DNA from: Cryomorphaceae bacterium
Lineage (GTDB): Bacteria > Bacteroidota > Bacteroidia > Flavobacteriales_D > Parvicellaceae
Length of the DNA stretch: 64,000 nucleotides
Reading direction: 5' to 3'
Assembly (NCBI GenBank): GCA_905182525.1
Contig: CAJJBV010000002.1
Location: 372,001 to 436,000, forward strand
Made by a program: the position numbers and the translations under genes. Positions 54,112-59,453 of this stretch are shown here, piece by piece. Below the pieces are notes generated by a model that searched no databases, was not told where the DNA came from, and saw only the letters and a list, made by a program, of their open reading frames with translations. Each line of letters starts with the position of its first letter. Position 1 is the stretch's first letter.

Positions 54112-55349
54112 TGCTTTATCATTTTTTCAATTATATAAATCAAAATTTTGACCTGCCTGGTTCGGGATTATTTCAGTTCATTTCATTTAGAGCTGGCATG
54201 GCTATAATTACTTCTTTAATTATCACCTTAATTTTCGGTGGGAAACTAATTAATTATTTACACAAAAAACAAGTTGGAGAGTCTATAAGAGACCTTGGCT
54301 TAGACGGGCAAATGGAAAAAACAGGAACCCCAACAATGGGAGGTGTAATAATCCTAGCAGGAATTATAATTCCAACAATTCTGTTCGCAAAATTAAACAA
54401 TATATATATTCAATTAATGCTTGTTTCTACAGTTTGGCTGGGTTTAATAGGGTTTTTGGATGATTATATTAAAGTTTTTAAAAAAAATAAAAAAGGATTA
54501 GCTGGTAAGTTCAAAGTAATTGGGCAGATTGGAGTTGGAATAATTGTTGGAGCATCAATGTATTGGAGTGAATCCGTAACTATTAAGTCTAAAACTTTTT
54601 ACAACACTGAGATTACAGATAACCATAATGAAGATAAAGGCCAAAAAAATTATTATTGGGAAGAGACAAAATCTCTAAAAACTACTATTCCTTTTATTAA
54701 AAATAATGAGTTTGATTATTCCTGGCTTATTACATGGGCTAATCCAGAGTTAAAGAATTTAGCTTGGTTAGCATTTATTCCCATCATAGTGATTATTGTT
54801 ATCTCCGTTTCCAATGGAGCAAATTTAACTGATGGATTAGACGGTCTTGCAACAGGAACAAGTGCAATTATTGGAATTACCCTGGCAATTTTTGCTTACT
54901 TATCTGGGAACTTAGTTTTTTCAGATTATTTAAACATTATTTACATTCCTAATTCTTCAGAACTTGTAATATTTATTAGCTCTTTTGTTGGAGCTTGTAT
55001 TGGCTTTCTCTGGTATAACTCTTATCCAGCCAAAGTATTTATGGGCGACACTGGTAGTTTAGCTCTAGGTGGAATAATTGCTGTGTTTGCTATTGCAATT
55101 AGAAAAGAATTACTAATACCTATTTTTTGTGGTGTATTTCTAATAGAAAATTTAAGTGTAGTTCTTCAAGTATCATATTTCAAATTCACAAAAAGAAAAT
55201 ATGGTGAAGGCAAAAGAATTTTTCTTATGTCTCCTATCCATCATCACTACCAGAAAAAAGGAATTCACGAAGCAAAAATTGTATCAAGATTTTGGATTCT
55301 TGGTATCCTACTTGCCGTACTCTCAATTGTAACCCTAAAACTAAGATGA
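54111..55349 (+). CDS. mraY: Phospho-MurNAc-pentapeptide transferase
   Basis: MraY (412 aa) makes lipid I on the inner membrane. Around ten transmembrane segments. Motifs: [18 protein letters not shown] near residue 66, [20 protein letters not shown] near 118, [18 protein letters not shown] near 237 and [16 protein letters not shown] near 370. A roughly 45-residue hydrophilic insertion (about 150-200) between two membrane helices makes it longer than the E. coli enzyme, a feature common in Bacteroidota. Start overlaps murE stop (TAATG); stop overlaps murD start. Confidence 0.96.
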
Positions 55350-56698
55350 TTAAAAACATCCAAAATATGATGGTTTTAGGAGCTGGCAAAAGTGGTATAG
55401 GCGCTGCTATTCTAGCAAAAAAGAACAATATAGATGTAGTAGTTTGCGATGATTCTAATATTTCAAATAAAAACATAGAGATTTTAAATAATCACAATAT
55501 TAAGTGGTATGAAAATGAATATATGTCATCAGTTTCATCTGAAAATGATCTATTAGTAGTAAGTCCTGGTATTGAAGATAATCATCCTCTAATCAAATAT
55601 TTTGATAATAAATTAAAACCCATTATTAGCGAAGTAGAGTTCGCCAGTTATTTCTGTAATGCAAAAAAAATATGTGTTACAGGAACAAATGGTAAAACCA
55701 CTACCTCTTTAATGGTAACATACATATTAAAACAAGCAGGGTTTAAAGTTAAGGCAGTTGGAAATATTGGTGAAAGTTATGCATTATCTGTTGCCTTAGA
55801 AGACAATGACTATTACGTTATTGAGTTGAGTAGCTTTCAATTAGATAGAATGTATGACTTCAAAGCAGATATTTCAATAATTCTAAATATTACTCCAGAT
55901 CATTTAGATAGATATAATCAAAATTTTACAAAATACTCTGAAAGTAAATTTAGAATCATTCAAAACATGACCAAAGATGATCATCTGATTTACAACCATG
56001 ATGACAAGGTGATTTGCTCATGGATTTCTGAGCACAAAGAGTCAAAATATTTATTAAACCCAGTTTCAATACAAAAGAGTTTACAGAACGGTTCCTGGAT
56101 AGAAAAGGAACAAATAAAAATCAGTATAAACAATAAAAAACAAACAATCATGTCCATTCATCAATTGGCCCAACAGGGCAAACACAATTTATTTAATTCG
56201 ATGGCAGCAGGTGTTGCTGCAAGAGTATTAGACATTCGAAAGGAAATTATCCGAGATAGTTTATCGGATTTTAAAAATGTAGAGCATCGATTGGAGGAGG
56301 TTGCTAAAATCCATGGAATTAACTTTATAAATGATTCTAAAGCCACAAATGTAAATTCTACATGGTATGCTTTAGAAAGTATGCAGCAACCAACGATTTG
56401 GATAGTTGGAGGAGTTGACAAAGGAAATGACTACTCAGTTTTAGAAGGATTGGTAAAACAAAAAGTTTTAGGAATTGTTTGTTTAGGTAAAGATAATACT
56501 AAAATTAAAGAAACTTTTGGAGAAATAGTTGAATCATTTTATGAATCAAAATCTGCAGAGCATGCTGTTCAGATTAGTTATAGAATTGCTAAGAAAGGAT
56601 ACAATGTATTGCTTTCACCCGCATGCGCAAGTTTTGATTTATTTAAAAACTACGAAGACAGAGGGCACCAATTTAAAAATGCGGTTAGAGCCTTGTAA
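55346..56698 (+). CDS. murD: UDP-MurNAc-L-alanine:D-glutamate ligase
   Basis: MurD (450 aa) adds D-glutamate to UDP-MurNAc-L-Ala. The start is ATG 55346, overlapping the mraY stop (ATGA); an in-frame extension inside mraY is not used. Domain 1 has [18 protein letters not shown], domain 2 the ATP loop [18 protein letters not shown] and [11 protein letters not shown], and domain 3 [37 protein letters not shown] and [18 protein letters not shown]. All expected catalytic and D-Glu-contacting residues are present. A second copy of domain 3 alone follows 10 bases downstream. Confidence 0.96.
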
Positions 56699-56708
56699 AT
56701 TACAGTTT

Positions 56709-57206
56709 ATGAATACAATAAAATCAATTTCCCTAAAAAAAATGCTTTCCAAAAAAAGAAAGCAGTCTCTAAGCACATTCTCATCTATTGAACACAGACT
56801 GGAATTTTTTTCTGAAGCTTTCGATAAAGTTTGGATTAATGACTCCAAATCAACAGGAACTGGAGACACAGCCTTTTCTTTAGAAAATATAGATGGACCC
56901 ATTATTTGGATAGTTGGTCAAGATCAATCTATCAGAGATTTTGACATTATAGAAGAACTTGTGTTATCTAAAGTTTCAGAAATTATTTATTATGGAAAAC
57001 ACGAAACGAGGTTAAAATACTTGTTTGGTTCAAAAATTAAATACTCACAATTATCAACTATTGATAGAGCAGTTAGCATGGCACAGAGTAATAAAACTAA
57101 AAATATTAAAGTATTGTTTTCTCCATCGTGCGCAAGTTTTTTAACACATGAAACTTATCAAGAAAGAGGAAATCATTTTAAAAATTTAATTGAGAATTTA
57201 ATTTAA
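56709..57206 (+). CDS. Stand-alone MurD C-terminal-domain-like protein
   Basis: A 165-aa gene I cannot match to a named family member. From about residue 15 it aligns with domain 3 of the murD product just upstream: SIEHRLEFF (27-35), INDSKST (43-49), IIWIVGQDQ (65-73), LFSPSCASF (136-144), ERGNHFKN (152-159). Domains 1 and 2, including the ATP loop, are missing, so it cannot be a ligase. Changes hit MurD residues: the Lys of VGGVDK is absent (VGQDQS), NDSKATN is NDSKSTG, and [10 protein letters not shown] is LTHETYQERG. It lies 10 bases after murD and overlaps ftsW by one base (TAATG), with an intact frame. Probably translated; possibly regulatory or structural. Confidence 0.85.
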   Translation: MNTIKSISLKKMLSKKRKQSLSTFSSIEHRLEFFSEAFDKVWINDSKSTGTGDTAFSLENIDGPIIWIVGQDQSIRDFDIIEELVLSKVSEIIYYGKHETRLKYLFGSKIKYSQLSTIDRAVSMAQSNKTKNIKVLFSPSCASFLTHETYQERGNHFKNLIENLI

Positions 57207-58333
57207 TGCAAGGATTTATTGAGAAATATATAAAGGGTGATAAGGTAATTTGGACAATTATAATATTGCTTTCTTTATACTCAATAATAATGGCCTACAG
57301 CTCAAGTTCTAACCTAGCATTTAGAATATCAGCCGGTAATGTTGCACCCTTTGTAATTAAGCATACATTAATAATTTTAATAGGAATTATTTTAATTATT
57401 TATTTACAATTTTTTCCCCATAAATATTTCTCAAGATTATCTCAAATAGGCATATTCGTTTCAATTATTTTATTGATTGTAACACTTTTATTCGGAGTTA
57501 GTAAAGGAAATGCTTCTAGGTGGATAATGGGTTTTCAGCCTTCTGACTTTGCCAAATTAGTTTTAATTATTTATGTCTCAAGAATGCTAACTAACAAGCA
57601 AGATGAAATTAAAGACTTCAAGAAAGGGTTAATGCCTATTTTATGGCCAGTAATTTTGATATGCGGCTTAATTTTACCCGCTGATTTTTCAACGGCAGCT
57701 ATGTTATTTGTTGTTTGTTTTACAATGATATTTATTGGTGGAGCTAAGATTAAGCATTTGTGTTCAATACTTGGAACTGCTTTTTTAGGTCTTACATTTT
57801 TGATTTTAATTAACATAGCCTTACCAGGTTTTCTTCCAAGAATTGATACCTGGGAAAAAAGAATGTTAAGTTTTGAGAGCGGAGATAAACAAGAAAATTA
57901 TCAAGCTGAAATGGCTAAACGTGCTGTTGTAAATGGATTTTTATTTGGAAAGGGTCCAGGCAAAGGACACGTAAAAAATGATTTATATTCTGCTCAGTCT
58001 GATTTTATTTATGCTTCATCAATTGAAGAATTTGGTTCTATCATTGGAGGAATTGGTTTGCTTATATTATACATGATTCTATTTTTTAGAGCAATAAGGA
58101 TAATGAATAAAGTAGACAGTAAATTTGCTGCTTTCATTGTTTTTGGATTAAGCTTTATGTTGATTTTCCAATCATTTGTAAATATGGGTGTTGGAGTGAA
58201 CTTATTTCCGGTTACTGGACAACCTTTACCTTTAATTAGTATGGGTGGGACGTCAATATTATTTACTTGTATTTCATTGGGTATCATATTAAATGTAAGT
58301 ACTTCTGTATATAAAGATTCTGAAAATGTCTAA
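57206..58333 (+). CDS. ftsW: Septal peptidoglycan polymerase FtsW (SEDS family)
   Basis: FtsW (375 aa) polymerises lipid II at the septum together with FtsI. About ten transmembrane segments. SEDS marks: IMAYSSSSNLAFRIS near residue 28, ASRWIMGFQPSDFAKLVLII near 102, NYQAEMAKRAVVNGFLFGKG and, near the C-terminus, NLFPVTGQPLPLISMGGTSI. Its ATG overlaps the stop of the MurD-tail gene, and its 3' end overlaps murG by 8 bases. Confidence 0.95.
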   Translation: MQGFIEKYIKGDKVIWTIIILLSLYSIIMAYSSSSNLAFRISAGNVAPFVIKHTLIILIGIILIIYLQFFPHKYFSRLSQIGIFVSIILLIVTLLFGVSKGNASRWIMGFQPSDFAKLVLIIYVSRMLTNKQDEIKDFKKGLMPILWPVILICGLILPADFSTAAMLFVVCFTMIFIGGAKIKHLCSILGTAFLGLTFLILINIALPGFLPRIDTWEKRMLSFESGDKQENYQAEMAKRAVVNGFLFGKGPGKGHVKNDLYSAQSDFIYASSIEEFGSIIGGIGLLILYMILFFRAIRIMNKVDSKFAAFIVFGLSFMLIFQSFVNMGVGVNLFPVTGQPLPLISMGGTSILFTCISLGIILNVSTSVYKDSENV

Positions 58334-59453
58334 TTTAAAAATAGTGATAAGTGGTGGTGGTACAGGGGGACATATTTATCCAGCAATTGCTATTGCAAAA
58401 AAAATACTTGAAAAGAATAAAGATTCAAAAATATTATTTGTTGGTGCTAAAGGAAGAATGGAAATGGAAAAAATCCCTGAAGAAGGATTTAGCATTATTG
58501 GGTTAGATGTTGTAGGAATTCAACGTTCATTATCATTAAAATCAATTTTTAAAAATTTAAAGTTTCCATTTTTATTACTAAAAAGTTTAAAAAATGCTAA
58601 AAAAATTCTTGAAGATTTTAAACCAGATGTAGTAGTTGGGGTTGGGGGATATGCTAGCGGACCAACTTTAAGAATGGCCCATTCATTAAACATTCCAACT
58701 TTAATACAAGAACAAAATTCTTATGCAGGTTTAACAAATAAATGGTTGAGTAAAAAAGCTAATAAAATTTGTGTAGCTTATGAAAACATGAATCAGTTTT
58801 TTGATGAAAGCAAGTTGATTTTAACAGGAAATCCAGTACGAAAAGATATAGAGAATTTAAATTCTAAAGTTGATGAAGCTAAAAAATATTTTAATGTTTT
58901 AAAATCAGAGAAAGTAATTCTAGTTCTGGGTGGTAGCTTAGGAGCAATGTCTATAAATGAAGGGATAATTAAATCTATAAGTATTCTTAATGATCAACCA
59001 GTAAAATTAATATGGCAAGTTGGGAAAAGATATTTTAATAAAATTAATGATCAATTGACACAAATTAATATGAAAAACATTCATCCATTACCTTTTATTA
59101 AAAGAATGGATTTAGCATATGCAGTTTCTCACATTGTCATTTCTAGAGCTGGAGCTTTATCAATTAGTGAACTAACTTTAGCTGGAATTCCAAGTATATT
59201 AGTTCCATCACCAAATGTCTCAGAAGATCATCAAACTAAAAACGCAATGTCGTTGGTGAGTAAATCTGCTGCTATTCTAGTAAAAGACGATCAAACAGAA
59301 AAGCTTTTATCAGTAGCCATAGAATTATTAAAAAATAAAGAACAATTAACTAAAATTTCTAAAAATGCTAAAAATTTAGGTAAGCCGAATGCTACAAATG
59401 ATATAGTAAGTGAAATTTTTAAACTAAATTTTAATGGAACTAAAAAAGTTTAA
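58326..59453 (+). CDS. murG: UDP-GlcNAc:undecaprenyl-PP-MurNAc-pentapeptide transferase
   Basis: MurG (375 aa) converts lipid I to lipid II on the inner face of the membrane. N-terminal ISGGGTGGHIYPAIAIAKKI, then VVGVGGYASGPTLRMAHSLN, LIQEQNSYAGLTNKWLSKKA and the donor-site LVLGGSLGAMSINEGI and ISRAGALSISELTLAGIPSI. Length is normal. It overlaps ftsW by 8 bases and murC by 20 bases, the largest overlap in this cluster. Confidence 0.96.
   Translation: MSNLKIVISGGGTGGHIYPAIAIAKKILEKNKDSKILFVGAKGRMEMEKIPEEGFSIIGLDVVGIQRSLSLKSIFKNLKFPFLLLKSLKNAKKILEDFKPDVVVGVGGYASGPTLRMAHSLNIPTLIQEQNSYAGLTNKWLSKKANKICVAYENMNQFFDESKLILTGNPVRKDIENLNSKVDEAKKYFNVLKSEKVILVLGGSLGAMSINEGIIKSISILNDQPVKLIWQVGKRYFNKINDQLTQINMKNIHPLPFIKRMDLAYAVSHIVISRAGALSISELTLAGIPSILVPSPNVSEDHQTKNAMSLVSKSAAILVKDDQTEKLLSVAIELLKNKEQLTKISKNAKNLGKPNATNDIVSEIFKLNFNGTKKV

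Follow-up and report, generated by a model that had tools for sequence, protein, structure and literature searches.

The stretch from murD to ftsW is among the best known bacterial gene clusters. What, then, is the additional gene that separates the two in the window (the full 64,000-nt stretch of DNA analysed here), and what might it do there? We refer to this gene, a stand-alone paralogue of MurD domain 3, as SA. The cluster reads mraW-ftsL-ftsI-murE-mraY-murD-SA-ftsW-murG-murC-ftsQ-ftsA, in which all names other than murD and ftsW are ones we presume from the sequences (Table 1). The original prediction claimed an intact frame tightly coupled to both neighbours, and this is what we find: an uninterrupted frame starts 10 bases after the murD stop (56698), and the last base of its TAA stop (57204-57206) is also the first of the ftsW ATG (57206), giving TAATG.

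Table 1. Genes at the murD–ftsW junction of the window and residues of SA placed by alignment with MurD (E. coli numbering).
Feature	Position	Strand	Remarks
SA, MurD domain-3 paralogue	56709..57206	+	165 aa plus stop, intact ORF
murD	55346..56698	+	450 aa; tested catalytic residues present in its own domain 3
ftsW	57206..58333	+	375 aa; start overlaps SA stop by 1 base
murG (presumed from its sequence), next cluster gene	58326..59453	+	reference in the locus comparison of relatives
SA Arg30 = MurD Arg302 (hinge 'molecular handle')	56796..56798	+	residue alignment
SA N44-D45-S46-K47-S48-T49-G50 = MurD NDSKATN (316-322)	56838..56858	+	residue alignment
SA Ser57, class-diagnostic Ala-to-Ser change	56877..56879	+	residue alignment
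SA G70-Q71-D72-Q73-S74, replacing MurD GGVDK; Lys348 to Ser	56916..56930	+	residue alignment
SA F137-S138-P139-S140-C141-A142-S143 loop; Ser415 equivalent kept	57117..57137	+	residue alignment

The likeness to MurD is confined to its C-terminal domain, as had been proposed. Against the MurD equivalog profile TIGR01087, SA scores 109 bits (E 3e-31) over positions 290-440 of 441, about half of the 211.95-bit cut-off; four other SA proteins also stay below that cut-off, with 69.7, 163.2, 166.4 and 157 bits. SA and MurD are the only two matches in the window's own genome, and SA is 37% identical to the C domain of the adjoining MurD. All four motifs singled out beforehand (EHRLE, INDSKST, SPSCASF and ERGNHFKN) are present. 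The ATP domain was predicted to be missing and indeed neither the central (Mur_ligase_M) nor the N-terminal domain gives a Pfam match in SA, whereas both do in the adjoining MurD. With Mur_ligase_C (PF02875), the window SA scores 14.2 bits, below the gathering cut-off of 28.4, as does the SA of locus L092 (20.0), while those of L087 (43.1) and L110 (46.2) pass it. The predicted fold of SA is that of MurD domain 3: its AlphaFold2 model (pLDDT 89.2, pTM 0.79) returned MurD in the first 33 rows of a Foldseek search and was aligned by VIA-align to Pseudomonas aeruginosa MurD with Z 22.2 and rmsd 1.7 over 139 residues.

To count SA as present, we required a frame distinct from MurD. The relatives search gave at least one match in 96 of 100 genomes, which in SA-negative genomes is MurD itself. 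SA occurs in all 11 genomes of the window's genus and in 35 of the 39 genomes of its family (f1); of the other four, G027, G032 and G038 have no MurD match either, and G034 has MurD alone. Elsewhere in the same order, SA is found in families f2, f3, f4, f7, f10 and f11, and the relatives search found none in f5, f6, f8, f9, f12 and f13. In the genomes read from f5, f6, f8, f9 and f13, ftsW follows murD with nothing SA-like between them; in f12, no ftsW lies behind murD in the stretch read. Outside the order, 284 genomes of the class gave at least two matches in 73 cases, one in 208 and none in 3. Inspection of 47 of the 73 two-match genomes identified 39 with a true SA and 8 without, the latter reflecting weak matches to other long proteins or a broken MurD (G314); among the remaining 26, G198, G244 and G277 show SA at the locus. 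The inspected genomes add 19 family groups, so that SA is known from 26 family groups of the class and is broader and older than originally supposed.

Beyond the class, none of 89 genomes of the same phylum has a second MurD-C match of the SA kind; in this set, G395 has its MurD divided between contigs, and two further genomes gave no match at all. When the SA protein of the window alone was compared with one genome from each of 84,980 species, a scan that detects close relatives only, the result was one full MurD and four close relatives, all of them metagenome-assembled genomes (MAGs), two with the name MED-G20. None of the viral contigs scanned matched the gene's first 24 bases. Within genus g82 of family f51, some species carry SA and others have murD directly followed by ftsW, so SA is at times gained or lost cleanly. 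Its clean absence from many families shows that it is dispensable over evolution. At one locus (L146, genome G321 of f44), the space between murD and ftsW holds an ORF of about 100 aa that bears no visible resemblance to SA; this ORF may be unrelated or may be what is left of a highly degraded SA.

Such a pattern of presence and absence raises the possibility that SA is a decaying remnant of a tandem duplication with little function. Besides the families from which it is cleanly missing, this reading can draw on the speed at which SA evolves (mean distance 1.37, compared with 0.43 for MurD-C, over 35 loci) and on broken-looking copies in three genomes: G010 has lost the N-terminal frame, G029 has an in-frame stop, and the first copy in G081 is reduced to an 80-aa frame. 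These copies, being in MAGs, may be errors. We calculated dN/dS within family f1 by the Nei-Gojobori method with our own script, skipping pairs with N or below 100 aa. The SA median is 0.094 and the maximum 0.192 (21 pairs, 18 with finite dS), compared with medians of 0.031 for the MurD C domain (25 pairs, 20 finite), 0.108 for the MurD N/M domains (25 pairs, 23 finite) and 0.045 for FtsW (25 pairs, 21 finite); single values are rough because silent sites are widely diverged in many of the pairs. SA is thus under purifying selection in family f1, with a constraint about equal to that on the MurD N/M domains and weaker than that on MurD-C. The signs of debris named with the original prediction were occurrence in one genome only, stops and dN/dS near 1; we see none of them as a pattern, the broken copies in G010, G029 and G081 being single ones. 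Simple debris, including a pseudogene, is rejected for f1 by dN/dS and is unlikely for the class by distribution. With 26 family groups and moderate support for an age beyond the split of the sampled Bacteroidia MurDs (see below), we regard a decaying remnant as highly improbable.

The age of SA was assessed in a tree rooted with MurD from nine families outside the class, which contained 32 Bacteroidia MurD-C rows and 39 SA rows. An earlier unrooted tree had dropped 52 of 133 rows (long branches and near copies), and for the rooted tree a further 10 MurD rows were removed and 10 outgroup rows introduced. All 32 MurD-C rows of Bacteroidia group in a single clade (support 90/88; in 91% of 200 bootstrap trees), and all 39 SA rows fall outside it. 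Because the outgroup-rooted tree places SA in this way, SA probably predates, with moderate support, the divergence of the Bacteroidia MurDs that were sampled; a quick tree lacking one very long Eubacteriales MurD row gave the MurD clade a support of only 84.7. A recent local duplication is not favoured by the rooted tree. Among the SA rows, 31 group together with support 98/89 and draw in the long Eubacteriales row, while the SA of f38, of f24 and of f16/f22/f52/f56 stand apart with their branching not resolved; in trees without an outgroup, the f24 SA fell among MurD. SA may nonetheless have a single origin, since a constraint uniting all 39 SA is not rejected (p-AU 0.704) and the free quick search falls 11.2 log units short of the constrained tree. 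As a separate observation, the SA end branches in f24 (L099, L112) are fairly short and those of the MurD C domains of the same genomes are long, as if constraint were shared differently between the two.

Single residues were compared in a tally of 94 SA and 103 MurD-C sequences with E. coli MurD numbering counted on the alignment. The tally omits the SA rows of L063 (one of which is a truncated MurD), L027, L008 and L035, the MurD of L036 and rows below 120 aa, and enters identical sequences once. Lys348 is retained in 7 of 94 SA and in 101 of 103 MurD. Other tested residues persist more often in SA: Arg302 in 69/94 (103/103 in MurD), Asp317 in 89/94 (103/103), Lys319 in 61/94 (102/103), Thr321 in 72/94 (103/103), Ser415 in 66/94 (103/103) and Phe/Tyr422 in 78/94 (103/103); Pro411 is found in all 94 SA and Gly426 in 88 of 94. 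In family f1 (n=31), Arg302, Asp317, Lys319 and Thr321 are retained in every SA, and the one lysine at position 348, in L010, is probably an alignment shift. Two changes are specific to SA, namely Ala to Ser after NDSKAT (Ser in 77/94 SA; Ala in 103/103 MurD) and Leu to Phe before Ser-Pro (Phe in 74/94 SA; Leu in 102/103 MurD). Position 322, Asn in the MurD motif, is Asp in 28 of the 31 f1 SA and Gly in the window SA. Judged from these alignments, the pocket looks remodelled in a shared fashion, not randomly lost. The original prediction of altered ligand residues stands with one correction: Lys348 is replaced by Ser74 and Asn322 by Gly50, but within the 'FKNYEDRG' stretch the counterpart of Phe422 is still aromatic (Tyr150).

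In E. coli MurD, the carboxylates of D-Glu-mimicking inhibitors bond with Lys348 and Thr321, and with Ser415 and Phe422 (PMC3527612); Arg302 is termed a molecular handle for MurD domain rotation (PMC4816537). One could imagine that SA is still catalytic in trans, replacing domain 3 on MurD molecules or forming hybrid active sites. The whole tested residue set is present in four SA, namely that of L010 with its probable alignment shift, L069 (f38), and L099 and L112 (f24), and the long branch of the f24 MurD C domain would suit such an exchange. For this reason, the term 'non-catalytic' need not apply to every SA. Catalysis in trans is very unlikely, however, with Lys348 missing from 87 of 94 SA, that of the window included, and with the MurD of SA-positive genomes retaining its own tested residues, the sole exception being a fusion protein in f82 with Arg at 348 and Ile at 319.

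The same residues could suggest a small-molecule sensor, in which the remodelled pocket would bind a precursor, be it UDP-MurNAc-peptide, some nucleotide or an amino acid different from D-Glu, and relay a signal. Two motifs that line the active site in MurD, NDS and SP, are among the most conserved parts of SA, and the loss of Lys348 together with the prevalence of Asp at 322 in f1 is consistent with a shift away from the D-Glu carboxylate site. We nevertheless consider a sensor improbable: only a part of the site lies in MurD domain 3, the motifs may be conserved for the fold alone, several pocket ligands are missing from divergent SA (f3 first copies, f4 and f16 second copies), and the window SA itself departs from the Asp pattern at 322.

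Gene order bears on possible partners. Among the 35 f1 loci with SA, 33 were read, and SA lies behind murD in all 33 and is followed by ftsW in 32, the contig ending in the remaining one (G030). Across the class, SA sits between murD and ftsW in at least one genome of 24 of the 26 family groups, the exceptions being f52 and f82. The gap between murD and SA has a median of 14 bp in 81 loci (65 of at most 30 bp, 77 of at most 100 bp) and that between SA and ftsW a median of 14 bp in 77 loci (44 and 70, respectively), figures that use guessed ATG starts and in which four loci repeat genomes already counted. Fusion or a frame error was considered and dismissed: no SA is fused to murD, ftsW or any other gene in the match tables and gene lists, and the long MurD frames examined (601 and 793 aa) are upstream read-through.

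Departures from this arrangement are few. The murD–SA gap is 206 bp in G033 and 1.7-2.1 kb in three genomes of the f1 genus g8 (L046, L047 and L048); in L046 (2415-4015) and L047 (2436-4490) it holds two extra genes. These have a lipoprotein-like start and a common 'GFLQKRKYxKGY' motif followed by hydrophobic segments, and the two from L046 gave no Pfam match over the cut-off. In G288 (L109), the wide gap is on the other side, with 780 bp between SA and ftsW. In the one f52 genome, G138 (L087), SA precedes ftsW and murD is elsewhere, behind mraY. In the one f82 genome, G355 (L092), SA occupies the place of murD between mraY and ftsW and the canonical murD is missing there; the only other match in this genome lies in the second half of a protein of 885 aa (L093:5767-8421), the first half of which matches MurL (NF041275) with 257.8 bits, under the cut-off of 700. 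This protein appears as a MurL-like epimerase half joined to a MurD half in which the GGxDK lysine is Arg. Finally, second, unlinked SA copies exist in f16, f52 and f56. Unlinked copies were seen at L089:7262-7819, L090:7620-8168 and L091:7198-7848, with two genomes for f16 and one for f56; a gene beside the f16 and f56 copies is presumably an aldehyde dehydrogenase, and inspection of the neighbours of the unlinked copies revealed no telling gene.

We also compared evolutionary rates. In partial rank correlations of distances over 35 loci, SA correlates with MurD N/M at 0.317, FtsW at 0.227, MurG at 0.191, MraY at 0.015 and MurD-C at -0.203. With murC added (33 loci), murC is highest at 0.417, followed by FtsW at 0.287, and MurD N/M falls to 0.115, so that covariation of SA with MurD is not robust.

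These data allow SA to be read as a divisome or lipid-II-side adaptor that binds FtsW, MurG or another membrane-step protein, its tie to MurD being one of descent only. SA stays with ftsW in f52 and f82, where murD is elsewhere, and in L046 and L047, where two genes part it from murD (L048 has the same gap); the FtsW correlation is positive in both runs. On the other hand, such breaks in synteny are few and the one in L109 is on the ftsW side, the second copies in f16, f52 and f56 are unlinked, and the FtsW signal is not specific because murC correlates more strongly. We therefore judge an adaptor of this kind unlikely.

Since SA is kept by selection and yet mostly lacks the key catalytic residue, it probably assists or regulates the building of the wall. 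A non-catalytic partner is the most economical reading, namely a retired catalytic domain that would serve as an accessory of the cytoplasmic peptidoglycan-precursor module by docking on a Mur ligase; we hold it tentatively, as plausible if short of probable. An old paralogue of MurD domain 3, existing without the N-terminal and ATP domains, would be made in register with MurD and FtsW, and its conserved face (the NDS and SP motifs) would dock on a Mur ligase. The first candidate would be MurD, at the face of the central domain on which domain 3 normally closes; SA docked there might slow or stage domain closure, or might hold the ligase near the membrane-bound steps. The more specific proposal, in which SA would be a dedicated MurD pseudo-domain subunit of Bacteroidia and, docked on MurD, would control the D-glutamate step or position it for the part of the pathway around FtsW and MurG, is possible and rather doubtful. 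Descent, the place directly behind murD and the conserved motifs lining the closing face all point to MurD as the partner; f82, which keeps SA without a canonical murD, and f52, with SA beside ftsW and murD beside mraY, count against it and point to FtsW or MurG. An artificial single MurD-SA chain was modelled with pTM 0.54 and a mean pLDDT of 76.6 and gave no sign of a placed interface, but the model is uninformative because MurD's own C domain was poorly predicted as well.

Three other links were tried and set aside. The glutamate racemase MurI, through which SA might relate to D-Glu supply, is found in 31 of the 32 SA-positive genomes compared and in 30 of the 32 SA-negative ones; MreB exceeds the cut-off in 30 and in all 32 genomes of these two sets, respectively. 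Neither protein tracks SA. A split-ligase partner supplying the N/M domains was sought in the window's own genome, where the shortest of seven Mur_ligase_M frames (C4:9314) is one we take to be FolC-like and the other six are of 434-793 aa.

Among known systems, SA is homologous to MurD domain 3 over the whole domain and has the NDS, SP and RG motifs in common with it, but it is a separate gene without N-terminal or ATP domain and with Lys348 and Asn322 changed. MurT/GatD is a distant Foldseek match of the SA model (6h5e_D). MurT is an enzyme subunit that retains the Mur central domain, whereas SA has the C domain only. MurT is reported to derive from a Mur ligase and to have a co-transcribed partner gene (PMC3267633). 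A precedent for the proposed mode of action, and for that only, is MigC, a COG0523 GTPase of Acinetobacter and thus of another family, a non-substrate protein that lowers the Vmax of MurD by binding to its domain 2 (PMC12208494); control of MurD by a protein is therefore feasible. As scaffolds of Mur ligases, MurG and MreB have been proposed (PMC6420597, PMC4816537). As the original prediction suspected, we found no paper on a stand-alone MurD domain 3 among the matches listed in the open-licence literature; subscription papers and preprints lie outside this scope, so absence is unproved. SA is apparently an undescribed family derived from a well-known domain.

The presence of SA at this junction in 24 family groups (26 with other places), together with the clear selection measured in f1 and the retirement of its catalytic site, points to a step of precursor control or assembly that is absent from peptidoglycan models based on E. 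coli. A MurD pseudo-domain subunit, if that is what SA proves to be, would add a lineage-specific layer of control to a pathway that is universal in other respects, and in several families a tandem second copy would double this layer. SA is suited to direct testing, since the protein is small, its candidate partners are obvious and a MurD assay is established, and the families in which murD is directly followed by ftsW provide natural controls. Tandem SA pairs occur in four family groups (f2, f3, f4 and f7). Not seen in the first copies of the same alignment, a basic N-terminal motif, T-I-H-K-[SG]-K-K-S, is present in the second tandem copies L031, L037, L038 and L039 (f2, f3 and f7).
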